From Maridesulfovibrio salexigens DSM 2638 (lineage in GTDB: Bacteria; Desulfobacterota; Desulfovibrionia; Desulfovibrionales; Desulfovibrionaceae), in NCBI RefSeq assembly GCF_000023445.1, contig NC_012881.1:2967501-3031500 (forward strand): a DNA stretch of 64,000 nt, in the 5' to 3' direction. The notes under the pieces are model-generated. The model did not search any database, was not told the DNA's origin, and was given only the letters and a program-made list of their open reading frames with translations. A program made the position numbers and the translations under genes. Positions 36,212 to 58,497 of the stretch are shown here, one piece after another (position 1 is the stretch's first letter; the number at the start of each line of letters is the position of its first letter).

Positions 36212-36288
36212 CGGGATGTGGCTCAGTCTGGTAGAGCGCTGCGTTCGGGACGCAGAGACCGGAGGTTCAAATCCTCTCATCCCGACCA
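36212..36288 (+). tRNA. tRNA-Pro (anticodon CGG)
   Basis: A 77-nt cloverleaf. The acceptor stem CGGGATG (36212-36218) pairs with CATCCCG (36278-36284), followed by ACCA. The anticodon arm CTGCG-TTCGGGA-CGCAG gives anticodon CGG. The T-loop is GTTCAAATC with a five-bp stem on each side. It reads CCG codons. The 3' half from 36239 belongs to the 61-bp repeat that bounds the island, so integration restored a complete tRNA. Confidence 0.95.
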
Positions 36289-36299
36289 GATAATTCAAG
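36239..36299 (+). repeat. attL: 61-bp direct repeat covering the tRNA-Pro 3' half
   Basis: Identical to 56657-56717 for 61 bases, from the CTGCG of the anticodon stem to TTCAAG beyond the CCA end. Flanking bases differ on both sides. This is the core attachment site left by integration of the element. Confidence 0.92.
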
Positions 36300-37282: not shown

Positions 37283-37283
37283 A

Positions 37284-40200: not shown

Positions 40201-40415
40201 TGGTGGATAACATCATCAACCGCCGAGGAAGGAAGCTGTGGGTTGATGCAGGAGACGGCAGAACGAAGGGGGGATAGAAGCAGCACATCATCAAAACTGG
40301 ACCGCTCACCGCTGCCGTCGGATTCCGGGTTCAGGTCCGGGCCGTGGTGATTTTCGTATCCTTCATCCTCAAACCAGCTTATGGCTAGCTTTTCCAGTGC
40401 GGCTTCATTGATCAT
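37284..40415 (-). CDS. hsdR: Type I restriction endonuclease subunit R
   Basis: A 1,043-residue motor and nuclease subunit. The N-terminal PD-(D/E)XK domain shows RRPDLIVYVNGLPLAVIELKSP. SF2 helicase motifs follow: Walker A HTQGSGKSISMCC, DEAD-box variant DECHRSQ, TGFTGTP, and the motif VI region QAIARVNRVF. The C-terminus is the helical part used in type I complexes to dock on the methyltransferase, ending in DWQHKESVRAKMRNL. The protein translocates and cuts DNA lacking the modification. The ATG overlaps the stop of the FRG gene by one base (TAATG), so it is translationally coupled to it. Confidence 0.95.
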   Translation of the reverse strand: MINEAALEKLAISWFEDEGYENHHGPDLNPESDGSGERSSFDDVLLLSPLRSAVSCINPQLPSSAVDDVIHQLTTLSHPVSVKANQLFHRLLRNGLDVSYKRDGETIADKAFLIDFQEWQNNIFWVVDQLTLQGTKDKRRPDLIVYVNGLPLAVIELKSPVDDSVGVDEAFNQLQTYRHELPDLAMFNEALIASDGIKARVGSLTASREWFLPWRYRKSEDDRPSFEYELKNVVEGFFDRKLFLEYVRDFVLFESDDTSTIKKIAGYHQFHGVRHAVEAIVQASSAAASDEQRGRGGVIWHTQGSGKSISMCCLAGKLIRHPELTNPTLVVVTDRNDLDGQLYETFCKAGDLLSDTPVQVEDRTSLRKVLNERQSGGIIFTTIQKFSLSDGETVFPALSDRRNIIVIADECHRSQYGFQSKLDEKKGAFTVGYAQHIRDALPNATFTGFTGTPVSLEDKDTQAVFGEYVSIYDIEQAQQDGATVPLFYESRLAKLDLNKEELPVIDDTVDELTEDEESAQAERTKGRWAALAKLVGSEPRLKQIAEDLVQHFEARLQVIDGKAMIVCMSREICVKMFDALTAIRPEWTGSKMSDGTYDPADGGIRIIMTSNAADPESMQNHSYSKQQKKALEKRFKDPADPLKIVIIRDMWLTGFDAPCAHTMYIDKPMKAHNLMQAIARVNRVFKGKPGGLVVDYIGIASELKNALHTYTNSGGRGGRPTIDVTEALFILKEKLQVARDIFHEFDYSEYATKAVELLPSAADYVVANENRKKEFFDVVVAMTRAQALCGTLDEAVAFRDEITFFQAVKMFISKATKPKKKLSQQEKEAVLNQLLAKAVVPEGVDDIFALAGLDKPDISILSDEFLEDVRHMEHRNLAVELLQKLINDEVHSKSRRNETQRKKFSERLKASLTKYRNRAIETAQVIEEMIQLAKELNEALKRGEKLGLNSSEIAFYDALELNESAVRDLGDEVLKAIARELTQKLRNSVTVDWQHKESVRAKMRNLVRRILKRYKYPPDAQKEAVEKVLSQAEELADEWSEES

Positions 40416-41662
40416 TATTGTTCTTCCTTGTTCTCGTCTTCTCGGATCATGACATCGACAATTTGTTCAACAACAGGAGTTCTATACTCTTCAGGAACAT
40501 TGTGATTTCGTAGCATGGTACGGGTAATGTTTTTAAATCGAGCATGGACAGAATCTTTGTGCTGCCAATCAGTAACTTTATACTCTTCAAGCGTATTGGA
40601 AAGTTTTTCGGCTAAATCTTCGATCTGTTCCACAGTATAGTATCCAACCCCCAAAATACTCTGAATCAACAACGATCGAACAGCTGCTGCTTCCTGCCCA
40701 ACAGGTTCATTTGTAATAGGATCAACGGGATACTTTATAACCGGGACAACAAAATCTGAAGCGTTAGAAATTGGCTCCGGCCTTATGATCGTAGCTTCAT
40801 CTATAAGCAAGTTACAGTATTCTGAAGCTCCGATGAGATCAGGAAATAGACTTCCATGATGGACGTTCATCCGTCTTAAATGCTTAACACATGCCTGCTG
40901 ATTCTCATTTTTAATATAAACCTTGCAAATATACTTAGCCAATGCATCTGGCTCTTCATCTGGACTTAGCCCTGAATATGGATGTCCATTAACCATGAAA
41001 TCTTCAGCAGTAATAACTTCAGTCAGCTTATTTTCAATTGTCGCATCATCAGGGGAAAAAGTGAAAAGGCCAGCCTGATTAACAAGCCTGCCGTGATCGT
41101 CCTTCTTCGGTTCAAGTACTCGAATATCGGGGACATCATCGTCATCTTCGATAAACGTTTTATTCAGGATGTAGACTGCCCTGTACGGGTTATCTGTTTC
41201 AGACGACGAATCCTGCTTTGAAAAGGCAAAGAATAAGGCGACATACGGTGAATACGTCCAATCAAGCAAAGGCGTTTTCAAGCCGTAATGCTGACCGATT
41301 GCCCATAATTCATCCTCTTCTTCGACGATATTACTATCCAGCAATCGTCCCCTTGCTGCTTTTTTAAATGCTTCAAACTGTCGACTTTTCAAATCTTGAG
41401 TAACAATCCCATTGCCACTATTACGAGCAAGGGAAGGGGTTAATCCCCAACTATACCTTCTTTGACCACGAAAGATATATTCCACACTGGAATCATTGAA
41501 AAAATCAGTTGAGACAAATGGAGTAAAATCTTCCCAACTCTCAAGGCGAACGACCGGAATTCTTCCACTAATCTTGTCAGCAGTAATCTCAAATTTGATC
41601 TCTGTACCCGGTTTCCAAACAGGAATTTCATTGCCCGGTTTTCTATCGAAGTAGTCACTCAT
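40415..41662 (-). CDS. FRG-domain protein with HsdR-like C-terminal module
   Basis: A 415-residue protein inserted between hsdS and hsdR. The FRG domain (named for its conserved residues) starts near residue 60: VEYIFRGQRRYSWGLTPSLAR, then QHYGLKTPLLDWTYSPYVALFFA. FRG domains occur in putative defence loci and have no proven activity. The last ~65 residues (VEQIEDLAEKLSNTL, then DWQHKDSVHARFKNI) align with the C-terminus of the adjacent HsdR. Each gene junction overlaps by one base (TGATG, TAATG) and a GGAGG site precedes the start, so its synthesis is tied to the restriction subunits. I infer that it docks on the HsdM-HsdS core. Confidence 0.8.
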   Translation of the reverse strand: MSDYFDRKPGNEIPVWKPGTEIKFEITADKISGRIPVVRLESWEDFTPFVSTDFFNDSSVEYIFRGQRRYSWGLTPSLARNSGNGIVTQDLKSRQFEAFKKAARGRLLDSNIVEEEDELWAIGQHYGLKTPLLDWTYSPYVALFFAFSKQDSSSETDNPYRAVYILNKTFIEDDDDVPDIRVLEPKKDDHGRLVNQAGLFTFSPDDATIENKLTEVITAEDFMVNGHPYSGLSPDEEPDALAKYICKVYIKNENQQACVKHLRRMNVHHGSLFPDLIGASEYCNLLIDEATIIRPEPISNASDFVVPVIKYPVDPITNEPVGQEAAAVRSLLIQSILGVGYYTVEQIEDLAEKLSNTLEEYKVTDWQHKDSVHARFKNITRTMLRNHNVPEEYRTPVVEQIVDVMIREDENKEEQ

Positions 41663-42909
41663 CAGAGTTCAGCCTCCAGTTTCCTCTCAACTTCTGCCAC
41701 TGAGAGTTCGCCTGAAATCAAATTTGGGAGCAGAGTGTCGCGAAGAGATGTCAAAGTTTGTCTTTCCTTCAAATTTGACACTATCTTCCTATATAGCGGT
41801 GATATAGCAGATTCAAATTTATTAAGTACCAACTCCTCAGGCACAATTATAGAAATGGGCTTAAAATTCTTTTTACTAATCTCTTGAAAAGTCGAACCGT
41901 TTGCATTGCTTTTAATAGTCTCCATATTCTCCTTACACCAGAAAAGCATATACATGCAGTTCAAGGACTTACTACATTCCATGGCTATAAAACCTTGATT
42001 AACGGCTGTATCAATTTCAGCAATAGCCAAGTAGCCAACAGGAGCTCTGGAGGACATGAGAAGGGTTCCCTTAGGCAATAATTTCGAACTAATTCTGTTT
42101 ACACCTTCCTCGGTAATCTTACGCGCTGTATCAAGCAAGACAGGTGATTCTAAAGCAGACAAGTCCTTAGGTGTAGCCCAACAAAAACTCCCACCGTCCC
42201 AGAACAGAGGGTTCTTTGTGCTGGGTGTTGCACCGCCCTTCACGATGACTTCTTTTCCAACCTCAGAGACTCGCCACCCCCTTGGAATCTCTCCCAACCC
42301 CGAAGGCTCAAACGAATCAGGAAACAAAGCCGCTGTCTCAGCATCCATCCCCACAGGCTGTTCGCCCCTCGCTTTAGCTTTGACCGGATCAAAATCCACA
42401 AACCAGCTTTTGAAGATAGCCTGTGCCATTGCTTCGAGGGTTTCGTTCATGCGGCGGTTTAGGTCTATTTTTTCGTCTATGGTGCCGAGAATATGAGCTA
42501 TCGCTTGCTGGGTTTTGAGGGGGGGAATTCGTATCTTTGTTGGATGGACAAAATTCCTATTGAGGGAAGGCTGAGCACTTCCAGAGTTGTAGCGTTTGAA
42601 ATCAAACTGCTTCAAAAAATAATATGCAAACCGAGGATGATTACCACGGAAATCCTTCACATACAGCGCCGTATTAAGTGGCCAAAAATCTATATCACTA
42701 TACGTCACGACACCAATCGAAGCCCCACTTCGCCCAACAGTGATTCCTGGCCCAGCCACTTTGGATTCATTATGATATCCCGTCACTCCAGAAGATCCAA
42801 GGATGGGAATGTCTCCAACTCGTCGTTGAGACTGCGGTAAGTCAATACCACGCTGCAATAAAACAAGGTTCTCAAAAATAGTATCCCGCCATTTTCTCTG
42901 CTTACTCAT
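41662..42909 (-). CDS. hsdS: Type I restriction specificity subunit S
   Basis: About 415 residues with two target-recognition domains separated by conserved helical spacers (QQAIAHILGTIDEKIDLNRRMNETLEAMAQAIFKSWFVDFDPV near residue 155, and LKERQTLTSLRDTLLPNLISGEL at the end). These set the two halves of a bipartite recognition site. The full-length ordinary arrangement has no sign of truncation. ATG 42909 is chosen over an upstream ATG: it gives the normal MSKQRKW N-terminus and overlaps the hsdM end by 8 bp. It is followed by the FRG gene with a one-base overlap. Recognition sequence is not predictable by eye. Confidence 0.93.
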   Translation of the reverse strand: MSKQRKWRDTIFENLVLLQRGIDLPQSQRRVGDIPILGSSGVTGYHNESKVAGPGITVGRSGASIGVVTYSDIDFWPLNTALYVKDFRGNHPRFAYYFLKQFDFKRYNSGSAQPSLNRNFVHPTKIRIPPLKTQQAIAHILGTIDEKIDLNRRMNETLEAMAQAIFKSWFVDFDPVKAKARGEQPVGMDAETAALFPDSFEPSGLGEIPRGWRVSEVGKEVIVKGGATPSTKNPLFWDGGSFCWATPKDLSALESPVLLDTARKITEEGVNRISSKLLPKGTLLMSSRAPVGYLAIAEIDTAVNQGFIAMECSKSLNCMYMLFWCKENMETIKSNANGSTFQEISKKNFKPISIIVPEELVLNKFESAISPLYRKIVSNLKERQTLTSLRDTLLPNLISGELSVAEVERKLEAEL

Positions 42910-44548
42910 CCCCAAACCCCAAAATCGCCAAATTCTCACGAATAAGCTTGTCCAAACGCTCGCCTTCTCTCATCTGCTCATAAAGACTAGTACTCAACTC
43001 GCCCATCTTCTCTTCAAACGGAGGCCCATTATCCTCAATCTCTTCAGCCCCAACGTACCGACCGGGCGTAAGCACATAGTCATGTTTGCGGATATCATCC
43101 AAAGTTACAGCAGCACAGAAGCCGGGAACATCTTCATACTTAACGGCGGACTTTTCACCCACCTGCCAACTAAGCAAGGTATGGGCTATACGCTGGATGT
43201 CCTTCTCTGGATGAAAATCCCTCAAGACACGATCAAGCATGTACCCACAATTGCGAGCATCGATGAACAAAACCTCACCTGTACGATTACGGAGGTCTTC
43301 GATGTTCTGACCGTTGGACTTATCCTTATTCAGAAACCAGATACAGGCCGGAATCTGAGTGTTAGTAAAAAGCTGGCCCGGAAGAGCAACAATACATTCG
43401 ACCAAATCATCTTCAATAATTTTGCGCCTGATATCACCTTCACCGCTTGTTGCTGACGACATGGAACCATTCGCCAGCAACAATCCCATCTTACCTTTAG
43501 GGCTAAGATGATGAATCATGTGCTGCATCCACGCGAAGTTAGCGTTGTTATCTGGTGGCAAGCCATATTTCCAGCGCACATCGTTAGCAAGACTATCCGC
43601 CCCCCAACCTTTGAGGTTGAACGGAGGGTTCGCCATAATGTAGTCGAAACGCATAGTTCCATGCTGGTCGTTGGTAAAAGTATCGGCAGGCTCTTTACCA
43701 AAGTCATACTCAATACCTCGGATAGCCATATTCATTGCTGCCAGTCTCCAAGTGGTGGGGTTGGACTCCTGACCGTAAATAGCCAGATCCGCAGGTCTGT
43801 GCGTGTGGGTTTCAACAAACTCTTCACTGGAAACAAAGAAACCACCGGAACCGCAAGCAGGGTCATAAATTCGCCCTTTATAAGGACGCAACATTTCGGT
43901 GATCAGGTTAACAATGGACTTCGGCGTATAATACTGTCCACCTTTCTTACCTTCCGCAGCAGCGAACTCGCCAAGAAAATATTCGTACACATGCCCAAGG
44001 ATATCCTTCGACTTAAGCGATTCATGCTCAAACGGGATGCTGTTGATAAGATCCATTACTTCAGAGAGCTTTCCGTCCGGAACTTCAAGTCTGGCGTAAT
44101 CCTTGTTTAGTACGTTTTTGAGTACTGGGTTCTCCTTCTCAACGGCAGTCATAGCATCATCGATAAGCGCACCAACGCTTTTGAATGTCTTATCTCCCCA
44201 CGGTAAGGGTTCACCGGGATTCAGTTTCGCGCAATCCATAAGATTTACCCATCTACCGGACTCAGGAACCCAGAAAACATTCTCTTCGACGTAATAATCC
44301 CGCTCTTCGATTTCCTCCATAGGATCTTCATCGTCCTCAAGGAAATACTCATGATCCGGGTTGGTAAAATTCTTCAGCAGTTCGTACTTTCTCTGTTCAA
44401 AGCTGTCGCCGACATACTTCAAAAACACTAAACCTAGCACAACGTGCTTATAAACAGCAGCATCAAGGGAAGGAAGCAGCTTGCAGGCCGCATCCCAGAG
44501 TCGTTTATCGAGGTCTTTAAAAAACTTATGTTGTTCGGCAGTGGTCAT
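42902..44548 (-). CDS. hsdM: Type I restriction DNA methyltransferase subunit M
   Basis: A 548-residue N6-adenine methyltransferase that, with HsdS, protects host DNA and forms the core of the restriction complex. The N-terminal helical domain (LWDAACKLLPSLDAAVYKHVVLGLVFLKYV) is followed by the SAM motif I YDPACGSGGFFVS near residue 225 and motif IV NPPFNLKGWG near residue 310. First gene of the hsdM-hsdS-FRG-hsdR-GIY-YIG operon. The promoter lies in the 435-bp intergenic region to its right; a 13-bp palindrome is visible 22-35 nt upstream of the start. Confidence 0.95.
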   Translation of the reverse strand: MTTAEQHKFFKDLDKRLWDAACKLLPSLDAAVYKHVVLGLVFLKYVGDSFEQRKYELLKNFTNPDHEYFLEDDEDPMEEIEERDYYVEENVFWVPESGRWVNLMDCAKLNPGEPLPWGDKTFKSVGALIDDAMTAVEKENPVLKNVLNKDYARLEVPDGKLSEVMDLINSIPFEHESLKSKDILGHVYEYFLGEFAAAEGKKGGQYYTPKSIVNLITEMLRPYKGRIYDPACGSGGFFVSSEEFVETHTHRPADLAIYGQESNPTTWRLAAMNMAIRGIEYDFGKEPADTFTNDQHGTMRFDYIMANPPFNLKGWGADSLANDVRWKYGLPPDNNANFAWMQHMIHHLSPKGKMGLLLANGSMSSATSGEGDIRRKIIEDDLVECIVALPGQLFTNTQIPACIWFLNKDKSNGQNIEDLRNRTGEVLFIDARNCGYMLDRVLRDFHPEKDIQRIAHTLLSWQVGEKSAVKYEDVPGFCAAVTLDDIRKHDYVLTPGRYVGAEEIEDNGPPFEEKMGELSTSLYEQMREGERLDKLIRENLAILGFGDE

Positions 44549-44765: not shown

Positions 44766-44803
44766 ATGTTCGCGCAACCTGAATATTCAGGTTGCGCGAA
44801 CAT
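44766..44803. repeat. 38-bp perfect palindrome between the divergent hsdM and recombinase genes
   Basis: Two 19-base arms, beginning ATGTTCGCGCAACC, are perfectly complementary without a loop. There is no T-run, and neither flanking gene ends here since both transcribe away, so it is not a terminator. It may be a recombination site, an operator or a REP-like element. Confidence 0.85.
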
Positions 44804-44804
44804 A

Positions 44805-44893
44805 GGGATTTCATATTGATTTGGTGCTTTTTGTGTGAGAAAATTGGCTTTGCAATTTTGGCGCAAAAAAGGCCGAAATCAATATGAAATCCC
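44805..44893. repeat. 89-bp hairpin with 18-bp perfect outer stem
   Basis: GGGATTTCATATTGATTT (44805-44822) pairs perfectly with its complement at 44876-44893. A second stem, AAAATTG (44840-44846) with CAATTTT (44853-44859), lies inside. Two smaller hairpins follow at about 44900-44960. This resembles a MITE- or REP-type structured unit, or a folded RNA. Confidence 0.75.
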
Positions 44894-44983: not shown

Positions 44984-46057
44984 ATGAACTTTGATTATGC
45001 TGTTGAACTAAGCGAAAAAATAACTTCAAAAAGACGTTCTCCACGAACTTTGACAGACTATCGGAGAGCAATAAAACTTCTAGAAAATCACACTCCCCAA
45101 GAATATCGTTCACTTTCGGCTTTTAAGAAAGGCACCCCTATTTCCAAAAGTCGATATAGACTTCTAAAGGCAGCCTACCAATTCGGATGTGCTGAGAGAC
45201 TCCTTTCATACTTAAAACAAGCAGAGGAACTTTCAAATGCTGGCGACTTTGCTTATGGAAACGCGCTTAAAGCTAAAGCATACATAGAGAGTGCACGCCT
45301 TTTAAAACAAGCCCCTGATTATGAACGCCAAAGATTCAGGCAAAAACTTGGGGCAGCCCACCCTGCTGTAGCAACAGAAATTTCTTCTAAGAAGCACAGC
45401 AAACGTAGATTTGTAGGAAAACTTAATAAAGAATTTCCAGATAGAGAATGGCAATTTAAAATATTAGAAGAACTGCCTGACCATCATACCTTCTCGTATA
45501 CTCTTTTAGCTCTGACAGGCCTTCGCCCATCAGAACTTCAAAATGGCGTTTCACTCAAAAACATTGATGGATTCCTACACGTGAAAATTGAAGGAGCCAA
45601 AATTACGAACTTTGCTGGCCAACCATGGCGAGAAATGGTTTTCAATCCGAAACAAGATGAATTCGCGTATATGGTTTATGAGTCTGTACAAGCCGCAGGA
45701 GGGTCAGACATATGGCTACAGCCTTATTCTCAACAAGCACTACGGAAAAGCCATAGCAAAGCAGTGGAGAAAGCTCTTGGTAGCAAATGGAAGAATAAAG
45801 TAAGCCTCTATACTCATAGACATGCGCTGTCAGCAGATCTCAAGGCTGCGGGATATAATCCAGAAAAGATAGCCCTGGCCATGGGGCATTCATCAGATCG
45901 CTCACAGGCATATTATGGTATGGCCAAACAGGCGACCGGTCATACTGGCCGTGGATTAGTTGAGGTAAAGGCAGCTAGGAAAGTAAAATTGAATGAGCCT
46001 GTTGGGCAACGAATGACCAGAACGTCACTCTCTTTTGATTCCGGAAACGGTCGATAA
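44984..46057 (+). CDS. Tyrosine site-specific recombinase, second in the island
   Basis: A 357-residue recombinase. The catalytic domain has the box I Arg in LLALTGLRPSELQNG, box II as YTHRHALSADL with Tyr in place of the first His, GHSSDRS, and a nucleophile Tyr in QAYYG. The N-terminal 170 residues are diverged, with a SYLKQAEELSNAG-type helical part. The C-terminal tail is basic and about 40 residues long. TAGGAG precedes the ATG. It is divergent from hsdM and sits beside a 38-bp palindrome and long hairpins. It differs clearly from the integrase at the right end of the island, and its target is unknown. Confidence 0.8.
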   Translation: MNFDYAVELSEKITSKRRSPRTLTDYRRAIKLLENHTPQEYRSLSAFKKGTPISKSRYRLLKAAYQFGCAERLLSYLKQAEELSNAGDFAYGNALKAKAYIESARLLKQAPDYERQRFRQKLGAAHPAVATEISSKKHSKRRFVGKLNKEFPDREWQFKILEELPDHHTFSYTLLALTGLRPSELQNGVSLKNIDGFLHVKIEGAKITNFAGQPWREMVFNPKQDEFAYMVYESVQAAGGSDIWLQPYSQQALRKSHSKAVEKALGSKWKNKVSLYTHRHALSADLKAAGYNPEKIALAMGHSSDRSQAYYGMAKQATGHTGRGLVEVKAARKVKLNEPVGQRMTRTSLSFDSGNGR

Positions 46058-46309
46058 ATTAAGATTTATTGTGGACTAAGTGATTTATTACACTCCATTT
46101 CTGCCAGGAGTCTCCAAGGCAAACCTTTACCCTAAGTACAAACAGCTCAGACACGCTCAAACACTACCAGATATTTTCTCACTCATTATAAGTAGCAAGA
46201 AAACAAATTTACCATAAAAGCACAATTCATAATTTCCATAACGACCATTCAGTCACATCCAAAACTATCTAGCCAACACTTTTATACCGCATTACTATCA
46301 CATTACGTA
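46058..46309. other. AT-rich intergenic stretch without a recognised gene
   Basis: About 250 bp. I see no terminator hairpin of note and no credible coding frame; the promoter of the phosphorelay operon lies at the right end. Confidence 0.5.
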
Positions 46310-46336
46310 TTGCAATAATCAAACTATTGATATAAT
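46310..46336 (+). promoter_or_regulatory. Candidate promoter of the phosphorelay operon
   Basis: A perfect TATAAT (46331-46336) with TTGCAA (46310-46315) 15 nt upstream, 28 nt before the start codon. The -10 is good, the spacing is short. Confidence 0.45.
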
Positions 46337-46363
46337 TACCTACTCCTAAGAACAGGAGAGGTG

Positions 46364-48556
46364 ATGGATTATACGACACTTGCCCCAAATGATAGGCTAG
46401 TATCAGGCCGAGTTGTACAAAAGGATATTGGCGTTTTTCATATAAAGTTGAACCCCAACAGTATAAGAGCTGATTCCGCAAGAATAAGTAGTGACAACTG
46501 TCCAGACAATTTTTGTATAGATGAACTAAAAATTGGGCAAGAAGTCACAGTATTTTTACTATCCCCCAAATTAAATTCAGGAGGGCTGTGGTACGCAAGC
46601 CTACTCCTAGCAGTTGAAGACAATCCATGGTTTACAAACATAGTCAAACGAGGAGAAATTGTTGGTGGAACTGTTGTAAACTATCATGGATATAAAACTG
46701 CAATAATAAGACTTGACCATCCATATACCGGACTAGAAGCACGCTTAGATATTAAAGATATTCCAAATTTTGGCACCGATATTTCCGATTTTTTATTAAT
46801 TGGAGACCTAGTTAAAGGGAAAATATGCGAAATAGACATTGGTAATATCCTAATAAAAATAAGTGTGAATGAGCTGTTGGAGGAATTAGAAGATAAGGAG
46901 CTAGAATATAGAGAAAAGATGTTAAATGAGTCCGATAGGACAGAGCATCTCCCTCAGCCTGCACAAAACAAAGATGATGCCATCACCTCAGATGACACAA
47001 AAACATTAAAAGACTGTTCTGTATTAATTATCGATGACGACCACGATTTTACAAGAGAATTGATGCTATGGCTCAAAAGTCTAGGCGCTACTTCTATGAT
47101 ATGCAGAACACCTGAAGACGTAAAACTAAGACTGAACAAACATTCTTTTTCTCACATATTACTCGACTATCAGTTAGACCAAAGTCCTTATTTCAAACAA
47201 ATCAGATCATTTCTTAAAAACATTCCTATACCTGTCAGCATAATGACAGCAGTAGCATACACAGACATAAAAAGCGAAAAACTAAATTCTTGGGGGTACT
47301 TACAAAAACCACTTTCATGCGACAATCTAATGAATTGGCTAGTATCTGGCGAGCAACCCGAATACTCGGACTCACAAGTATTTGACCCAATATGGAAAAA
47401 TAGTACACGGACCGATGAAGTTCTTTGCAAAGTAAACCGTTTTTTGGGTGAACTGTGTGAAGATATTGGAAGCTGCGCTGCCTTATGGTGTGTTGAAGAA
47501 TGGAAAAGGAAATTCTCTATTCGAGCATGGTTCAACTTACTTAGAGAGGACATGCTAATGTTACAACCATCATGCCAACACACAGCTATTCGAACTGCAA
47601 CTTCTTCAGGGACGCCTATAGCTTTGCCTCTATACAAATCTGGGGCACTGGAGAAATGTGCGCCCAAAGAAGCAAAGCACGTTCTTGCCTGGCCATTGGA
47701 AGTCGACGGAAAAACCGATAGATGCATCGTTTGTTATAGCAAAAAAGAATTTTCGAAAACACAAATTTCAAAAATTCAACACAACCAATCCAGAATGTTA
47801 GACCTAGTTGATTGGTTGCAATTGACAAGATATTTAGATGAAACTGAAACATTTGCTGCAATGGGACGGGTCGCTGCAAGTAGTTTGCATGAAATTAGAG
47901 GTGTTGCATCGCCAATTGTACAAAGTTCCGTCAGACTGAGAGCAAAGGCAAAACGCATTAGTTCATTATCAAAAACAGAGATAATGGAATTACAAGAAGA
48001 TCTCAGAATGCTTGCTGTCAGCGCGAAAACTCTTGAACGAACAGCAAAAGCCAATTTGGCCCACATTCAACTTGAAAGACGAGAAAAATTTAGAGCGAGA
48101 ACCAACATTAAGCGAGTAATTAAATTAATAAAATCATCTGCTCTAGAAAAAGAAATAAGAATTATCACTGAACTTCCTAATACAAATCTAACCACAAGCA
48201 TAGCTCCAACACCAATTGAGCAGCCCCTATTAAACATCCTGACAAATGCTATTGACCACCTTGATAAAGATTGTTGGGGAACAATAACGGTTACAGTTGA
48301 ATTTCATTTCGAAGATGATCCCCAAAGGCCTTTACATATCTATATTGAAGATAATGGACCAGGAATCAAGAGTGACACTAGAGAAAATTTATTTACTGCA
48401 CGTAGTAGCACTCGCGGCATTGATGGAGTTGGACTGGGGCTCTACCTATCCCGCAACCTACTGCGATCTATTGGCGGAGACCTTCTGCTTGTTAAATCAA
48501 TTAGGTGGATTGGTACAACCTTTTGTATGAAAGTTCCTGTGAAAATTAATTCCTAA
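46364..48556 (+). CDS. S1-like/receiver/histidine-kinase hybrid (gene 1 of the phosphorelay)
   Basis: A protein of about 730 residues. Residues about 8-175 look like two S1/OB-type segments (GRVVQKDIGVFHIKL; GEIVGGTVVNYHGYKTAII then GDLVKGKICEIDIGNILIKI). A receiver follows at about 217-330 with the full set: IIDDDHDF, phospho-Asp in HILLDYQLD, Thr in IMTAVAY, Lys in LQKPLS. Then come a GAF-like region, an H-box SLHEIRGVASPI, and an intact HATPase (NILTNAIDHL, EDNGPGI, DGVGLGLYLSR). Thus it should be an active kinase. No transmembrane segment, so it senses an intracellular signal. ATG 46364 is preferred to the GTG one codon before; AGGAG fits. Confidence 0.8.
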   Translation: MDYTTLAPNDRLVSGRVVQKDIGVFHIKLNPNSIRADSARISSDNCPDNFCIDELKIGQEVTVFLLSPKLNSGGLWYASLLLAVEDNPWFTNIVKRGEIVGGTVVNYHGYKTAIIRLDHPYTGLEARLDIKDIPNFGTDISDFLLIGDLVKGKICEIDIGNILIKISVNELLEELEDKELEYREKMLNESDRTEHLPQPAQNKDDAITSDDTKTLKDCSVLIIDDDHDFTRELMLWLKSLGATSMICRTPEDVKLRLNKHSFSHILLDYQLDQSPYFKQIRSFLKNIPIPVSIMTAVAYTDIKSEKLNSWGYLQKPLSCDNLMNWLVSGEQPEYSDSQVFDPIWKNSTRTDEVLCKVNRFLGELCEDIGSCAALWCVEEWKRKFSIRAWFNLLREDMLMLQPSCQHTAIRTATSSGTPIALPLYKSGALEKCAPKEAKHVLAWPLEVDGKTDRCIVCYSKKEFSKTQISKIQHNQSRMLDLVDWLQLTRYLDETETFAAMGRVAASSLHEIRGVASPIVQSSVRLRAKAKRISSLSKTEIMELQEDLRMLAVSAKTLERTAKANLAHIQLERREKFRARTNIKRVIKLIKSSALEKEIRIITELPNTNLTTSIAPTPIEQPLLNILTNAIDHLDKDCWGTITVTVEFHFEDDPQRPLHIYIEDNGPGIKSDTRENLFTARSSTRGIDGVGLGLYLSRNLLRSIGGDLLLVKSIRWIGTTFCMKVPVKINS

Positions 48557-48566
48557 GGAAGAAGCC

Positions 48567-51038
48567 ATGAGCAATCAAAAAATAGACATAATTATTATTG
48601 ATGACGACATTCAATTCCGTCAACAGATGGCAAAATACTTCCAAGATCATTACGGATTAACAGTTAGACATCCACAAATATGGAAATATGATAGAATAAG
48701 CGAGTATCTAATCAACAATCCCAGCTGCGTATTACTACTAGATGAATTCCTGGGAGAAAAAAATGGAGTTCCAATTTCTGCATTAAGTTTATTGAAAAAC
48801 ATTAAAAGGACCAATTCATTTGATAAGATAAAAAACAAAATATGGATAATTACTGGAAATTCATCACCTGCAATTAACAAGCTACAAAGAATCACGAGTA
48901 ATGTGCAAAACAAATGGTTAGCAAAGCCAACAACATTCGAACAAATTCTTCTATTTATTAAAAGTGATGGAGAGGAAATAGAAGGCATTGTCCCTCCTGA
49001 CCTGGACGACAACAATACATGCTATAGAATTATTAATGACGAGAATGAAGTAATTTATACAAACAACTGGAATGGACCATTTAATAAACCAGATCCAACA
49101 CATCTTTCTGCAGGACGCAACCCTAACAGAATAAAAAGCGTAACTATCGAAAGAGAATTTTGGGGAACATGCCCTCTGTCAGGTGAGGTTGGAGCTTTTA
49201 CAATAAATCAAATTCCTGCCAAAAAAAAAGGGTTTTACATTCAATCTGTTGTTGATTCAAAAAGCAAGCCGAATGATCAACGAAAATTTTTTATTATTAA
49301 TTTTTTAAGGTCATTAGCTGAATATGGTTTCCCACGAGGACGCTACTACGACCTAAGAGATGTGTCTGGCTCACAAGGAACAATAACACTACGCTACTGC
49401 AACCACAAAGAAACAACCGTACCTGCCCCATGGCAAGCTCTAAACGGTTCTTTACTAGAAGTGGTTAAAAATTTTGAAGGAAAAGACGCTAACGATAACA
49501 AATTGATCTACAGTATACTGCCGCAAAACCAGCTAAACGATGTAGATTACTTTGATAAAATCATTGACAGCAAGGGAGTACAAGACTGGCTACTAATCCC
49601 TTTTCTAAAAAAAGATTCTACGAATATGACCTTTAAAGTTAAGGGACTCTTTGTTTTTGATCGAAAAAGCATAGCACGCCCCACAAAGGTAGAAACAAAT
49701 ACTGAAAAAGACACAAATATTGACGACACACAGGTACAAAAAATTGCCCCCCTCTTCAGACCTGTGTTCAAAGACTTACGTGATCTTGAAGAAAAAAATC
49801 ACCGCAAAGATTTAATGAAAAGATGGGAACGCATTAGAGACGCTTTAGACGCCCTTGCCCCAATTCAGGAAGCAAAGTATTTTTTCCAGACATATGTCAA
49901 GCTTGCTTGCGAAATGTCTAAAGCTGAAAAAGGAATTTTGATTGTCAAATGGGGACAGATGCCTATTGTGACTATTGTGGCAATTAATGAACAAGTTGAA
50001 TGTTTATCTTTTTTTGAAAAGTGCAGACTTCCTGAGAAATCTAATTGCAATTTCCCTTTCCATTGGAGTGACACAGTTGACGGAAATCCCGAAAAACCAT
50101 TCTCTGGCATAACTATCGAAGACTTAACTAAAGTAACTAAATATGGTCTCGGAGGCGATACCAATAGAGACCATCTAGAACGTGGAGTTGAATGTTTAAA
50201 CAAAATTGGATCTTCAATTACAATCCCACATAAGATAAACGAACAAACAATAGCCTGCTTGATACTTCTACACGATGAAGTATACGCTTTCAGCGAAAAA
50301 CTTTCTTCCATCTCACGAGATTTTGCAGCAGTTGTTACCCCACAACTTCAATTTTTAATTTCTAGATATAACAAAAAAATGTGGCAGCACAGTTTAGTGC
50401 ATGAAATTGGTGGCTGTTTATGGGGAGCAAAAACGCCTATTGACGTGCGAGCCAAGCACAACCCAGAAGAATACTCAGCACCTTTAATGTTTTTACAGCA
50501 TGGCCATGATTTATGCCAAAACTTTCTTGACTTGCATAAAAATATAAGGATCAACACTTCCAAAAAATTTCTGCTACATGAAGCAATCGATGATTGTTTT
50601 AAGCTATATTTACCGCTTTCTAAAGGGCACAAGCAAAACATACATTACTGTTCAAGATACAAAGAACTTGGCTCTATTTCACTTCATGGCAAAGAATATT
50701 TTTACCGAATCCTAAGGGTCTTGATCCATAACGCTATAAAATTTGGAGGAACAGAAGCAACTATTGATGTTCAAATAATACTGAATCAAAAAACAGCAGA
50801 GGTTATTATCAACAACCCTGGGCAAATGTCAGAGGAAGAAAATCAACTTAAATTTCAATCACATATTATCCCTAGAAACAAGTCTGGAAATGTCGGAGCA
50901 CACGTAGGTCTTTCATTTGCCAAGCATCTTGTTGAAATGTGTGGTGGAATAGTTAGCGTTGAAAACACAAAAAACAAAAGAGTACAAGCGAGGGTAACAT
51001 GGCCACTTCAATTAGAAGTCACATCAAAGGCAAATTAA
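48567..51038 (+). CDS. Receiver/GAF/degenerate-kinase hybrid (gene 2 of the phosphorelay)
   Basis: An 823-residue protein. The N-terminal receiver (IIIIDDDIQF, LLLDEFLG, IITGNSS, LAKPTT) is intact. An unassigned region of about 250 residues follows, then a GAF-like domain (residues about 430-600) and an H-box in QHSLVHEIGG. The C-terminal HATPase keeps the N-box (LIHNAIKFGG), but the DNGPG motif is NNPGQ and the GxGxGL motif is GAHVGL, so ATP binding is doubtful. It may act as a phosphotransfer or phosphatase hub rather than a kinase. It starts 10 nt after gene 1; its last 40 bp overlap gene 3. No membrane segment. Confidence 0.75.
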   Translation: MSNQKIDIIIIDDDIQFRQQMAKYFQDHYGLTVRHPQIWKYDRISEYLINNPSCVLLLDEFLGEKNGVPISALSLLKNIKRTNSFDKIKNKIWIITGNSSPAINKLQRITSNVQNKWLAKPTTFEQILLFIKSDGEEIEGIVPPDLDDNNTCYRIINDENEVIYTNNWNGPFNKPDPTHLSAGRNPNRIKSVTIEREFWGTCPLSGEVGAFTINQIPAKKKGFYIQSVVDSKSKPNDQRKFFIINFLRSLAEYGFPRGRYYDLRDVSGSQGTITLRYCNHKETTVPAPWQALNGSLLEVVKNFEGKDANDNKLIYSILPQNQLNDVDYFDKIIDSKGVQDWLLIPFLKKDSTNMTFKVKGLFVFDRKSIARPTKVETNTEKDTNIDDTQVQKIAPLFRPVFKDLRDLEEKNHRKDLMKRWERIRDALDALAPIQEAKYFFQTYVKLACEMSKAEKGILIVKWGQMPIVTIVAINEQVECLSFFEKCRLPEKSNCNFPFHWSDTVDGNPEKPFSGITIEDLTKVTKYGLGGDTNRDHLERGVECLNKIGSSITIPHKINEQTIACLILLHDEVYAFSEKLSSISRDFAAVVTPQLQFLISRYNKKMWQHSLVHEIGGCLWGAKTPIDVRAKHNPEEYSAPLMFLQHGHDLCQNFLDLHKNIRINTSKKFLLHEAIDDCFKLYLPLSKGHKQNIHYCSRYKELGSISLHGKEYFYRILRVLIHNAIKFGGTEATIDVQIILNQKTAEVIINNPGQMSEEENQLKFQSHIIPRNKSGNVGAHVGLSFAKHLVEMCGGIVSVENTKNKRVQARVTWPLQLEVTSKAN

Positions 51039-51469
51039 AGGGCAAACATATACTTTTAGCTGACGATGAAGTTTTAACTACCGCTGAATATGAAAATGCC
51101 TTAATTGAAGCAGGTTGCAAACTAACAAGAGTAAAGTCTATCGAAGAGGCTTATCAAAGCATCAACAAAAACAAAAACAACATTGATTTTATAATTCTTG
51201 ACTTAGACCTGCATACTGTTCCTACTGAATTAAAGAATTATATCCTTGAAATGGGGGATAATTGCACGACGAACAAAGCACAAGTACTAGGGCTATATCT
51301 GTGTGAGTCAAAAATAAACATTAGTTACTGCTACTATTCCGTTGTGGCAAATTCATATTGGAGAAACAAATTTGAAAAGGATGTAAATGTCTATGACAAA
51401 TTTGACCTTGCACCGATCGACCTTGTCGAAAAAATATATGAAACCTATGTAGATCAGGACAAGAAATGA
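50999..51469 (+). CDS. Stand-alone receiver protein (gene 3 of the phosphorelay)
   Basis: A 156-residue receiver. The acidic pocket is ILLADDEVL and the phospho-Asp is in FIILDLDLHT. The Thr/Ser position is in YYSVVANSY and the conserved Lys is in YDKFDLAP, without the usual Lys-Pro pair. A basic N-terminal extension of 17 residues (SIRSHIKGKLKGKH) precedes it. No output domain. The ATG lies 40 bp inside gene 2, in another frame, behind a GAGGG site, so translation is coupled. Its stop overlaps the start of gene 4 by four bases. It likely carries phosphate from gene 1 or 2 to gene 4. Confidence 0.75.
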   Translation: MATSIRSHIKGKLKGKHILLADDEVLTTAEYENALIEAGCKLTRVKSIEEAYQSINKNKNNIDFIILDLDLHTVPTELKNYILEMGDNCTTNKAQVLGLYLCESKINISYCYYSVVANSYWRNKFEKDVNVYDKFDLAPIDLVEKIYETYVDQDKK

Positions 51470-52200
51470 TACTTTTTAACAGTGAAGCACTTACAATTGG
51501 GTTAGCGTTCTTCCTACTTTTTATTGGAGTCCAAGTTCACAAGTCTACAGGAGAGGGAAAAATTCCTCTTCATACATCTTCCGAAAACAAATTAATTATA
51601 AGTTTATTTAAAACATACAACATTATATATAAAATATCTCAACAAAACCCATGTAAAAGTCTATTCACAGCCGTACTATATGCTCTAGCTATTTCATTAT
51701 CTTTTGATCCAATCAAAAATATATTTAGTAACACAGGACAAGGAGGAGCCTTTCAAAATGCTATTGGCATTTTTGCTCTTGTATTGACATTCTTATCAGG
51801 GGTTGCAATTGTATCAGCCCGAGATGCACTAAAAGACATATACAAGTCTAAAACATTGGACAAAAAGATAGCTAAAGTAGAAAGAATGCTATTAGTTGTT
51901 CGCAAAAATAGAAGACTTGCTAAGTACTTAACAATGTACACACGTGAACTTTTAGCCCCTAATGAACAAAGAAATAGAAAAAAATTACTAACATTAGAAA
52001 TGATAATTGGTTTCTATGAAGAAATGACTGAACACTGTCCTCTAGACCACAAGATACAAACACTTTGCAATTGTCCTCAAGGCCGAACAATGCTCGACAG
52101 AAGCGATTGGGAAATAATTAAAGCTTTACCTAATTTTTATCGGCAATATCCAAATTACAGTAACATGGCTATACAGCTATATAGTCACCGCCCTAATTAA
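51466..52200 (+). CDS. Three-helix membrane protein, candidate effector (gene 4 of the phosphorelay)
   Basis: A 244-residue protein with predicted transmembrane helices near residues 8-24 (LTIGLAFFLLFIGVQV), 62-80 (SLFTAVLYALAISLSF) and 98-118 (IGIFALVLTFLSGVAIV). A cytoplasmic helical tail of about 120 residues is rich in Lys/Arg/Glu (KKIAKVERMLLVVRKNRR). I recognise no enzymatic motif. The ATGA overlap with the receiver gene ties its expression to it. Small membrane proteins at the end of bacterial defence operons often disrupt the envelope after activation; this is an analogy, not seen here. It could also be a membrane anchor for the relay. Confidence 0.7.
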   Translation: MILFNSEALTIGLAFFLLFIGVQVHKSTGEGKIPLHTSSENKLIISLFKTYNIIYKISQQNPCKSLFTAVLYALAISLSFDPIKNIFSNTGQGGAFQNAIGIFALVLTFLSGVAIVSARDALKDIYKSKTLDKKIAKVERMLLVVRKNRRLAKYLTMYTRELLAPNEQRNRKKLLTLEMIIGFYEEMTEHCPLDHKIQTLCNCPQGRTMLDRSDWEIIKALPNFYRQYPNYSNMAIQLYSHRPN

Positions 52201-52511
52201 TTTTGAACAACAATAGTAACGGGAAAAACATAGATGTTCATTACATGTAGTAATCTGCTTATTTTAAAATTCACCTTAAGTACAAGAATTCCAAATTGAT
52301 ATGAAATTTATCTTTGAAATAGAACAGGCTTTCCCTTAGTATTGAAATACTAAAGAACAATCAAAACAGGGTAACGTGTTCAACGAGAACCACAAGTCTA
52401 GTTGCGGTCGAATACCACTTGCAACTATGCTTATGGGAAAGAACTCTGAAACGATAAGGTCCAAAGTTTAAACTAAACTGACAATTTCGGTCCCATCAAA
52501 AAGGCGGACTG
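52201..52511. other. Intergenic stretch between the membrane-protein gene and the Fic fragment
   Basis: About 310 bp. A weak hairpin TAGTAT-TGAA-ATACTA lies near 52338-52353, without a T-run. A short plus-strand frame ends near 52471 but has no start with a good Shine-Dalgarno. No RNA family recognised. Confidence 0.45.
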
Positions 52512-52946
52512 TCAGATCAAGTATGAACCACTACACTTGAATTGAATAAAATTAACAATATCTTTCAAGTTACTCTCTACTCTATATTCCCCCACTCCCT
52601 TACTGATAAAAAGCTCTGAATGCATGCTGCGAATCAAATCTACTGACAATTCATCCCCAGACTCTAGCTTGGACAATCCTAAATTCAATACCCTGATATA
52701 ATTTGCAGCCATAATTAAGTCAGCGTCATACTTTGACACATCGCACACCTCATAACCAAGCAAATCATCCAAAGTAATATTGCAGTTATCTAACATAAAA
52801 GAAAAAAGTGTCTCCTTCTTCATTAATAAAGGATAAATACTCTTGAAATTATATGAAAGAAAGAGACTTTCAAGCTGACCTAAACAGAATGTTGCTTCAA
52901 ACAATTTATTGATCAAATTCTTTTCGTATTGAATATCAAGAATCAA
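52512..52946 (-). pseudogene. Truncated Fic-family protein (N-terminal Fic_N-like part only)
   Basis: A 144-residue frame. Residues about 75-130 resemble the Fic_N region that precedes the Fic domain: AANYIRVLNLGLSKLESGDELSVDLIRSMHSELF followed by GVGEYRVESNLK, the place of the usual PGEFR. The catalytic HPFxxGNGR loop is absent: the frame stops about 20 residues later, and the sequence beyond gives no Fic continuation I can see in any frame. A full Fic protein transfers AMP to targets. Here only a remnant, or a shortened regulatory form, is left. An inverted repeat-rich region lies upstream. Confidence 0.65.
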
Positions 52947-55324: not shown

Positions 55325-56470
55325 TTATCCACACAACAACTCAGCGGCTCGATTGCTGGCTTGCTTCTTAGTATCTGGCAAAAACTGCCCATACCGCTTT
55401 GTCATGGATGAATCTTTATGGGTCAACAATTCACCAATCATATCAAGCGAAAATTCACCAGAATTCGCCAGAGTCACGGCAAAATGGTGTCTCAATCCAT
55501 GAAAAATTCGGAATTCTCTCGGAAGAATAGCCTTTTTCTTGATCCTATTAGCTGCTGAACAATTTACTCTCATCGCACCTTTCTTGCCGGGAAAGACAAA
55601 CTCAGACTCAGGAAAAGTCTCATTTTTCCACTGAATTTGATCAAGCAACAAATCCGTAACAACGCCATTCATTGGAATCGAAACACTCTTTCCGCCCTTG
55701 GGAGCGCGTAAGAAAATTAGCGACTGCTGAAAATCACAATCTCTATCTTCAAGTTTAAAGATTTCACCTCTCCGCATACCAGTGAACATCGCAATTTTAA
55801 GCATTCGGCACACATCACGAGAGGGCCACTCTTCAAGCACTTTAAGAAAACGCTTCAACTGATCCGAGGTAAGATATTCGACAACTTCATTATCTCGTCG
55901 GGGCATCTGGATAGTAAATCCCAACTGTTCGCACAGACCGTTCTTTGAACCAAAATTGATTATACGGCGGGTGATCTCAAGACCTCCCCATATAGAAGCA
56001 GCAGACATGCCATCCATTTTCTTTTTGATACGCTCCATATCAAGCTGGCATAAATTCCTAACTGGCCTTGAACCTATCACTGGGGAAACATGGTTATCAT
56101 AGCGACCTTTGTCTATTTTGGCCCCCTGTGAAGACTCACCGCGCACCTTGAAATATTCATCGGCAATATCATCCAATCTGATATTGGCCTTGAGATCTGC
56201 CTCGCGCAACTCTTTGTGCGTTTTGACGGCTTCACCATGCCTAGCCTTCTTAAGTCGATCAGAACGAATATCCGAGGCAATCTGTGGGGTGTATTTTTCA
56301 GACTTCCAACCTACTTTCTCCCACTTAAGTTTGCCATCGATACGATAAGCAACGTGGTAGCAAACGTCCGGCTTTCCCTGATAACGCTTTTGCTGGCTTT
56401 CATAAGAATAAACACCGGGCCACCTATTCTTGTTCACTAATTTTTTTCGGCTCGATTTAGCTTTGCTCAT
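55325..56470 (-). CDS. int: Tyrosine integrase of the island
   Basis: About 381 residues. The N-terminal arm-binding domain (GVYSYESQQKRYQGK) and SAM-like core-binding domain (ANIRLDDIADEYF) precede the catalytic domain: Arg in AMFTGMRRGEIF, Lys in APKGGKS, HGLRHHFAV, LLTHKDSS and the Tyr in MTKRYGQFL. ATG 56470 with AAAAGG upstream is preferred to a TTG that would add 24 residues. The paired end repeat (56499-56530) lies just upstream, so the integrase may bind its own promoter. It is adjacent to attR and oriented like typical tRNA-site integrases. Confidence 0.92.
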   Translation of the reverse strand: MSKAKSSRKKLVNKNRWPGVYSYESQQKRYQGKPDVCYHVAYRIDGKLKWEKVGWKSEKYTPQIASDIRSDRLKKARHGEAVKTHKELREADLKANIRLDDIADEYFKVRGESSQGAKIDKGRYDNHVSPVIGSRPVRNLCQLDMERIKKKMDGMSAASIWGGLEITRRIINFGSKNGLCEQLGFTIQMPRRDNEVVEYLTSDQLKRFLKVLEEWPSRDVCRMLKIAMFTGMRRGEIFKLEDRDCDFQQSLIFLRAPKGGKSVSIPMNGVVTDLLLDQIQWKNETFPESEFVFPGKKGAMRVNCSAANRIKKKAILPREFRIFHGLRHHFAVTLANSGEFSLDMIGELLTHKDSSMTKRYGQFLPDTKKQASNRAAELLCG

Positions 56471-56498
56471 ATTGACCTTTTCAAATAATTGGAGGCTA

Positions 56499-56530
56499 AT
56501 TTTTGCTAACCTATTGCTAACAACTAGCGC
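56499..56530 (+). repeat. Right copy of the island-end repeat
   Basis: Contains the same 24 bp as 36331-36354, with TTGCTAAC repeated (56503-56521), then AC and TAGCGC. It lies just upstream of the integrase start and is separated from attR by about 130 bp. Confidence 0.75.
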
Positions 56531-56656
56531 AAATTTGACCAATTTCTTTCGAAGTCAATAAAACTCATTTTTTTATTTCTGTCAATTTTAATCAATAATT
56601 TCAAAGTCTTTAAAGTCACATAAAAGAAAATAAAATTCAGTCAAAAGTAATCAATC

Positions 56657-56717
56657 CTGCGTTCGGGACGCAGAGACCGGAGGTTCAAATCCTCTCATCC
56701 CGACCAGATAATTCAAG
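56657..56717 (+). repeat. attR: 61-bp repeat of the tRNA-Pro 3' half
   Basis: Identical to 36239-36299. It starts mid-anticodon stem and lacks the 5' half of the tRNA, so it is not a functional tRNA gene. It marks the right end of the island. Confidence 0.92.
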
Positions 56718-56811: not shown

Positions 56812-58497
56812 CTAAACCGAATTATTCGATAATTTAGTTATCCTATTAAATCTCCATTCCCCAAGCTCATCCTTAAGCTCAACAAAAGCTCTGGTTATTT
56901 TTTCACGAAGCTCAACAAAGGCATCAGATTGAGAGTGACTTCTTGCAAACTGGATCGATATTTTAACAAATTCAGGATCTTCTTGAAACCATTTCCTCAG
57001 TAACTCAACTCTCACTCCATCAAAATATTTATCGTCAAAGTCTCCCCAACTTCTCGCGCTTTGGACCTCTTTTAAACGCTCTTTAAATAAACTAAGTGTA
57101 TAAAGATCATTAATTTTATTACCAAATTCTGCTTCATAATATTCCTTAACCTTAATATCTGATGCACAAATAGAACTAATAGTCTCACAGTACTTAAACT
57201 TCCTCGCTGACTCCACCCCATCTATCTCACAAACTCTATCCCTAATATAATCCATTTTAAATTGCCGAAAGAGCGTATCTGCATCATCAGAAAACTCTTT
57301 AAACACAGAAAACAAATAATTAATATTTTCAAAGGATGTATACTCAAATATATTATAACCAACACCGTTTATGGCACTAGTCAATTCTTCAATAAACTCT
57401 TCCGCCGACTTAGACAAATCAAATGTATATTGATCCAATATATCGAACACTTGCCTATATTTAATTTCTTTTTCTTTCTCAAGCTCTCGCTCACTTAGAA
57501 GGCTTTCAAACTTAACTAAATCTAAAAGAGAAGTATGAATAAATTCCCACAAAAAATTGTGCCACGCAAAATGCTCTGAAACCCTAGTTCCATAAGCATA
57601 AGCGTATTCTTTTACCATAGATTGACTAAATTCTTCTTCTGCATTCATATTTTGAAGCTCAAAGTAAGACAACTTACTTAATCCTTCATATCCTAAGCCA
57701 CAGTATACAATCGTTAACAATGAAATATTGTATGCTATATAACTTGAACGCCAATCATTACATGGCCCGATCATTTGTGAGACAAAACTAACATTCCTAA
57801 CTGCTTTCTTTACAGTTCGTAGATTATTTCTATGGTATAGCCCAAATGCTTCTTGGATTCCTATTTTATATTTATTTTCAACCTTATTTAACAATTTATC
57901 AATAATATCTTCCTGCGAAGGATTATACTTAAACTCACAATCTACTACTTTTTCACTATATTGAGAGTACCAGCCTCCTTCATCCCTTAAATTTTCTTCG
58001 TCCATAATAAGTATTACTGTTGAGCCAAATCTTTCCTTCAAATTAGACACAAAACCCATAATTTCAGAATAGCTCAATTCATCAGACTTACGTTCAAAAT
58101 CATCTATGCAAATGGTTAAACCAGACAAACTATTCTTTTTAAACAGAGATAAAGTATTACCTAGAATACCTGTGCCAATAGTAAATCCACCAAACTCACC
58201 AGCATCGCCACTAATGCTAGTTTTAATATTTTTCAGAACACCAGAAATTTTATCTATATATTCATTTCTTGAAAAAGCTTGAAATAATATATTATTTTGC
58301 AACGACTCAAAATTTCTATGCCCAAACAATGAGACATAAACAAATCGCTCTTGTTCCTTTTCATCAAAATCATTTTCAACAAAGTCATTCCAAAAATACG
58401 TCTTCCCACATCCCCACTCACCTTTCAGAACAATCACCTGAGCATTATCTGCATCAACTAAGGCTTTAAGTTGCTTTTTATATTCATTTATTGTCAT
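56812..58497 (-). CDS. KAP-type P-loop NTPase
   Basis: A 561-residue protein with Walker A VLKGEWGCGKTYFW near residue 20-33 and Walker B LTICIDDFER near residue 130. A second acidic loop (IMDEENLRD) and a long helical C-terminal part without known motifs follow. This is the KAP/STAND-like NTPase layout; no transmembrane pair is evident, unlike some KAP proteins. Many such NTPases lie in defence islands. The gene is much more AT-rich than the permease next to it, which points to transfer. It lies just outside attR and has an AAAGGA site before the ATG. Confidence 0.75.
   Translation of the reverse strand: MTINEYKKQLKALVDADNAQVIVLKGEWGCGKTYFWNDFVENDFDEKEQERFVYVSLFGHRNFESLQNNILFQAFSRNEYIDKISGVLKNIKTSISGDAGEFGGFTIGTGILGNTLSLFKKNSLSGLTICIDDFERKSDELSYSEIMGFVSNLKERFGSTVILIMDEENLRDEGGWYSQYSEKVVDCEFKYNPSQEDIIDKLLNKVENKYKIGIQEAFGLYHRNNLRTVKKAVRNVSFVSQMIGPCNDWRSSYIAYNISLLTIVYCGLGYEGLSKLSYFELQNMNAEEEFSQSMVKEYAYAYGTRVSEHFAWHNFLWEFIHTSLLDLVKFESLLSERELEKEKEIKYRQVFDILDQYTFDLSKSAEEFIEELTSAINGVGYNIFEYTSFENINYLFSVFKEFSDDADTLFRQFKMDYIRDRVCEIDGVESARKFKYCETISSICASDIKVKEYYEAEFGNKINDLYTLSLFKERLKEVQSARSWGDFDDKYFDGVRVELLRKWFQEDPEFVKISIQFARSHSQSDAFVELREKITRAFVELKDELGEWRFNRITKLSNNSV

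Follow-up and report, generated by a model that had tools for sequence, protein, structure and literature searches.

Four closely packed genes at positions 46364-52200 of a 64,000-nucleotide stretch of Maridesulfovibrio salexigens DSM 2638 (NC_012881.1, positions 2,967,501 to 3,031,500; hereafter the window) raise the question of whether they form one signalling unit and, if so, what such a unit might serve. The genes, here called A, B, C and D, were initially annotated from the sequence as a phosphorelay operon with a membrane output and a possible role in defence. We have found a second copy of the set in a genome of another family, and consider it very likely that the four genes make up one functional phosphorelay unit. 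The set is probably a real unit that has not been described before.

The four-gene operon and its counterpart in another family

The operon lies on the + strand and consists of gene A (46364-48556, 730 amino acids), coding for an S1-like region, a receiver, an unassigned, GAF-like middle and a histidine kinase; gene B (48567-51038, 823 amino acids), coding for a receiver, a GAF-like region and a histidine kinase with a variant ATP site; gene C (50999-51469, 156 amino acids), coding for a lone receiver; and gene D (51466-52200, 244 amino acids), coding for a predicted three-segment membrane protein. The genes adjoin or overlap one another, with a gap of 10 nt between A and B and overlaps of 40 nt between B and C and of 4 nt between C and D. 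Their GC content is 0.33-0.38, against 0.45 for the whole window. The tight coupling and AT-richness described in the initial annotation were thus confirmed, and its domain reading of the four proteins was supported by Pfam and by the homologues of A and B described below. An in-frame GTG at 46361 precedes the ATG of gene A at 46364, from which the residues of A are numbered here, and GGAGAGGTG stands 5' of this ATG. Consensus scans of 46000-52600 gave 18 promoter sites (21.3 in shuffled sequences) and 6 terminator sites (4.5 in shuffled sequences), and since both numbers are at background level no transcription signals are claimed for the operon.

A search with residues 1-214 of A through 395 genomes of the phylum, at E up to 0.01, gave 39 genomes with a match, among them its own. 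One of them, G402, which belongs to another family of the same phylum, matched A at E 2e-11 with 30% identity over residues 16-192, within an open frame of 755 amino acids, and was found to carry all four genes. In the 20 kb around this match (locus L074) the homologues A' (L074:9831-12083, 750 amino acids), B' (L074:7393-9834, 813 amino acids), C' (L074:6938-7417, 159 amino acids) and the weaker D' (L074:6082-6945, 287 amino acids) all lie on one strand and keep the order of the window genes, neighbours overlapping by 4, 25 and 8 nt. BLASTP, run as one pairwise comparison each, gave E 3e-71 for A, 2e-28 for B, 1e-12 for C and 0.004 for D, with 205/689 (30%), 195/765 (25%), 49/148 (33%) and 57/208 identical over aligned pairs, respectively, and the Smith-Waterman z values against 300 shuffles were 100.8, 47.0, 16.7 and 4.5. 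The initial annotation had held that a lack of co-conservation outside the island would speak against it; the shared order, overlaps and homology in another family instead point to a conserved, transferred unit rather than to genes that are neighbours by chance. Furthermore, the histidine and aspartate phospho-sites are kept at an overall identity of 25-33%, which argues that the phosphate chemistry is under constraint.

The genes of the L074 cassette have a GC content of 0.29-0.36, compared with 0.56-0.57 in the 10-11 kb on each side, where the open reading frames (ORFs) look, by eye, like unrelated housekeeping genes. Directly upstream of A' and on the same strand lie a 236-amino-acid ORF, an HsdM-HsdS fusion and HsdR. 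Type I restriction-modification (R-M) neighbours and an AT-rich, mobile setting are therefore common to both loci. The 236-amino-acid ORF (L074:12290-13000, - strand), between the fusion and A', had no Pfam or PADLOC match and has a HEPN-like look, judged by eye only. Two 300-nt repeat copies, 99% alike, lie 13.2 kb apart in L074; they were rejected as proven insertion ends, as the repeat family has six copies in the 20-kb stretch.

The two kinases

In protein A, histidine-kinase features are complete, with the H-box histidine and the N, G1 and G2 boxes all present. The HATPase_c domain (48209-48544, + strand) matched Pfam at E 5e-16 and has canonical boxes, and the predicted phospho-histidine, His509 (47888-47890), lies in an H-box that is the same in A'. 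The receiver (47021-47335, Asp268) matched below the Pfam cut-off, at E 1e-5. Residues D224, D225, D268 and K315 of the receiver, H509 and E510, N624 and N628, D663, G665 and G667 of the G1 box and G688, G690 and G692 of the G2 box are identical in A and A', the receiver threonine of A being serine in A'.

The amino-terminal part of A holds two S1-like segments, at 46388-46567 and 46649-46873 (+ strand), the first of which is weak by itself. Pfam found no S1 match in A at E up to 1. The second segment gave a full-length alignment to an S1 hidden Markov model (HMM) with 7.7 bits, the best of 2000 shuffles reaching 7.0, and hhalign comparisons with S1 gave E 3.5e-4 for the first segment and 0.0055 (controls 0.65 and 0.71), with low probabilities of 37% and 7%. 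A weak match of A to the structure of general stress protein 13 was also seen (E 0.18). The matching region of A' did reach Pfam S1, with 26.2 bits against a curated cut-off of 22. Of the 37 further genomes matched by the S1-region query, loci from eight were examined; six of these encode proteins with five to six S1 repeats, and two (L070 and L071) gave no blastp match. The matches of A in L066 and L067 each extend across two S1 repeats that follow one another in a protein with five. Taken together, these comparisons suggest an S1 region in A, marginal when judged from A itself and firmer through its relatives.

Protein B matched HATPase_c at E 2e-8 (50700-51011, + strand) and, weakly, a receiver at E 0.035 (48588-48950, Asp59), and a profile search against the PDB returned only generic kinases and receivers. 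The GAF-like region is best seen in B', which matched GAF_2 at E 1e-5 with 26.2 bits, slightly below the cut-off of 28.6. B has a predicted phospho-histidine, His612 (50400-50402), in a LVHEI motif that is the same in B', and an N box, but carries asparagine in place of aspartate in the G1 box (N750, with G752) and GxHxGL in the G2 box. Residues D12, D13, D59, K120, H612, E613, N722, N750, G752, G777, H779 and G781 are identical in B and B', and the receiver threonine of B is serine in B'. The initial annotation had called this kinase degenerate; the departures from a canonical ATP site are indeed there, but since the non-canonical residues are the same in B', a comparison of the two proteins suggests a specialised site rather than a decayed one.

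The lone receiver and the membrane protein

Protein C matched the receiver family at E 5e-5, below the Pfam threshold, and has an insert after the phospho-aspartate, Asp68; D22, D23, D68, S114, K134 and F135 are identical in C'. Its PDB profile search gave generic receivers and kinases only. C also matched the PADLOC candidate PDC-M60B at E 5e-4; its assignment to PDC-M60 was rejected, as the model matches 23 places in the genome, none of which is C, and 11 of 14 control genomes.

For D no family was found above the curated Pfam cut-off, a receiver was matched neither by D (E up to 1) nor by D' (E up to 0.5), and nothing useful came from the PDB profile search. Hydropathy places three hydrophobic segments at 51469-51525, 51658-51714 and 51760-51816 (+ strand), with peaks of 2.02, 1.57 (just below the line of 1.6) and 2.39; the peaks of D' are 1.46, 2.35 and 2.35, so that the three-segment layout is common to both proteins. 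Homology of D and D' is probable, and is put no higher because their alignment score stands barely above that of shuffled sequences and the case rests partly on gene position. A weak PADLOC match of D' to a CorA-like model (E 0.0013) was not accepted as an identification.

Even at E up to 1, proteins A, B and D went unmatched in PADLOC, and NCBIfam and PHROGs returned kinase and receiver families only. None of the eight proteins of the two cassettes has a DNA-binding output domain above the Pfam cut-off, which favours a direct protein target.

Comparison with known systems

To our knowledge few immune systems use phosphotransfer, and Detocs is the only one that we can name. In its response regulator, DtcC, an effector domain is joined to the receiver. 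Detocs is described as consisting of three genes, for the kinase DtcA, the buffer protein DtcB and DtcC (PMC11728103), arranged in a compact operon that is found in defence islands and has a proposed post-translational output (PMC11728103, PMC11249213). The present set resembles it in having a histidine kinase and a receiver-only protein (C, C') within a compact operon. It differs in that both loci have four genes, two of them for kinase-like proteins, in that a sensor region of S1 type is present, and in that the membrane protein, D, is not fused to a receiver. By its layout the set is not Detocs, as had been noted initially; the distinction is drawn from layout and published descriptions.

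Like ordinary hybrid kinases and phosphorelays, A combines a HATPase domain, an H-box and a receiver with canonical residues; here, however, the receiver is N-terminal to the kinase, an S1-type region is present, and the genes form a conserved four-gene mobile cassette. Unlike classical two-component transcriptional control, the set has no DNA-binding regulator above the Pfam cut-off. Among the components of nucleoside triphosphate-dependent conflict systems, S1-like OB domains and receiver domains are mentioned, and no histidine kinase domains are reported among the vWA-associated effectors; these systems are built around core components other than those of the present set (PMC7159879). The legend of a figure in another study names HATPase and REC among the domains of predicted defence systems (PMC13092281), and on that legend the present set may overlap with the systems predicted there. 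Among the papers listed in literature searches, judged by titles and the openings of abstracts, none dealt with an S1-receiver-kinase relay with a membrane effector, and no specific match to the four-gene set was obtained among the PADLOC models.

Proposed function and alternative explanations

Phosphotransfer is a main currency of bacterial regulation. In the mechanism that we propose, the S1-type region would let A respond to a cue inside the cell, most likely RNA or how transcription or translation is running, and A would then autophosphorylate on His509. By way of the receivers and histidines of A and of B, the hub protein (Asp59, His612), the phosphate would reach Asp68 of C, and phosphorylated C would act directly on D, with no transcription step. 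D would in turn disturb or gate the inner membrane. The most likely outcome would be a limit on phage or on other incoming DNA, perhaps through abortive infection. We infer the defence role from where the two loci lie, in mobile settings and with R-M genes as neighbours. That this reading holds in full, with a phosphorelay that starts from an S1 sensor, has a membrane protein as its effector and serves defence, seems to us an evenly balanced proposition. A new type of immune relay, in which the S1 kinase senses infection through RNA, B gates the phosphate and C switches on the three-helix protein D post-translationally, is put forward tentatively. If true, a conserved four-part relay running from an RNA-type sensor to a membrane end-point would be a second wiring of phosphotransfer to defence. 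The idea is testable, because the second locus defines the conserved residues, the order and the partners.

Several observations weigh against a membrane-directed defence relay. Two loci are known, both in one phylum, and no integrase was seen by eye in the 10-11 kb on each side of the G402 copy. R-M genes are common in islands and are thus weak evidence for defence. The first S1-like segment of A scored 4.3 bits against the S1 HMM, within the range of 2000 shuffles. D and D' scored 64 by Smith-Waterman where the best shuffle scored 61, and when unrelated membrane proteins were compared in six pairings, one of these, a transporter with D', reached 50. In addition, D may act as a sensor.

The set could instead be an ordinary signalling cassette of a mobile element, which would sense stress or the state of the envelope and serve the fitness or maintenance of the island rather than stop phage, D being a membrane sensor or a regulated channel. 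Its parts all belong to the standard two-component repertoire, no toxic or enzymatic domain was recognised in D by Pfam, and the host is rich in signalling, with 131 receiver matches in its genome; the R-M neighbours at both loci and the lack of a gene for a DNA-binding output above the Pfam cut-off in either cassette speak against this explanation, which we regard as rather unlikely. It is improbable that the relay controls or guards the adjacent type I restriction system, for instance by stepping in once restriction has failed or been inhibited. Type I R-M genes do adjoin the cassette at both loci, and in L074 they stand directly upstream on the same strand, but in the window a recombinase gene separates the cassette from the R-M operon, which lies on the other strand, and the two R-M systems differ, with separate HsdM and HsdS in one and a fusion in the other. 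Hardly credible, finally, is a mere chance grouping of signalling genes that do not form one unit: the many searches that gave no relatives would agree with it, but for A, B and C the ordered, overlapping copy with 25-33% identity in another family already contradicts it, D being the weakest member.

Searches for further relatives

No homologue was found by tblastn in plasmids and phages with B, C or residues 1-548 of A, in plasmids with D, or by blastn in plasmids with the operon DNA; the middle of B gave one chance match only in plasmids at E up to 10. Peptide-pattern scans of viral contigs (8/8) and genome contigs (2/2) found no homologue either. A' matched 1268 plasmid records, none over more than 80% of the query, and the 30 listed all lay in the kinase part. 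Full-length B matched 71 of 199 genomes of the family, its own included, almost all through the kinase domain only, and residues 1-599 of A matched 144 of 247 genomes of the class, the receiver accounting for almost all of those listed. With the middle of B as query, only its own genome was matched among 345 genomes of the phylum, and among 288 genomes of the family there were, apart from its own, six short matches (E 0.03-0.09). D was matched in its own genome only among 395 genomes, as was the operon DNA among 17 genomes of the genus. These negatives are weak, as G402 lay among the 345 genomes and the B query missed its cassette, which was found by the S1-region query only; the D query missed it too, if its 395 genomes are those drawn for the S1-region search. 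The searches had too little sensitivity to rule out relatives with 25% identity.

The host island and its integration site

The operon had been described as cargo of a tRNA-integrated island beside a type I restriction operon, and both points were borne out. The island measures 20.4 kb and is bounded by exact 61-bp repeats of the 3' part of tRNA-Pro(CGG). The left attachment (att) repeat (36239-36299, + strand) overlaps the tRNA gene at 36212-36288, and its exact copy lies at 56657-56717 (+), next to a tyrosine integrase gene (55325-56542, - strand; Pfam Phage_integrase E 1e-24). Besides the relay genes the island holds a DUF4357 gene (36404-37306, -; PADLOC candidate PDC-S14), the type I R-M operon with HsdR, an FRG-domain gene (PDC-S15), HsdS and HsdM (37284-44548, -; Pfam and PADLOC), a second recombinase-like gene, a Fic_N fragment and small phage-type genes. 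The FRG-domain gene lies at 40415-41662 (-), and its C-terminus and that of HsdR both match T1RH-like_C.

The recombinase-like gene (44984-46057, +) sits between HsdM and the four-gene operon and has relatives in 23 plasmid records; among the matches listed, 18 of 20 are tiny plasmids of 2.3-3.6 kb. A perfect 38-nt palindrome (44766-44803) and a 28-nt inverted repeat (44805-44893) lie 5' of it, and gene and repeats together may be a captured mini-element. The Fic_N ORF (52512-52946, -; 144 amino acids) has the Fic N-terminal domain only, the catalytic Fic domain not being found by Pfam, and is possibly a remnant. Just beyond the right att repeat a KAP-family NTPase gene (56812-58497, -; GC 0.326) matches PADLOC PDC-S49 at E 1e-24.

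The flanking genes 34810-35859 and 58510-59607 have matches in all 16 other genomes of the genus compared, and judged by match coordinates their best copies are at most 7 kb apart in ten of them, in eight of which tRNA-Pro was found. In G117 and G179 about 0.5 kb separates the flanks and the tRNA is present, which is the empty state; in G007 and G074 the distance is about 0.3 kb and no tRNA was found; and in the remaining six stretches the flanks are 1.9-6.9 kb apart, with other genes between them. Two of five ORFs from these stretches match PADLOC, one PDC-S31 (E 2e-22) and the other, weakly, mad8 (E 2e-6), and one or two extra att copies are present in two of these six, L056 and L058. The differing inserts, the extra att copies and the PADLOC matches indicate that the site has been used repeatedly. 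With three att copies in L058 and two in L056, the tRNA-Pro site looks as though small islets had been stacked there.

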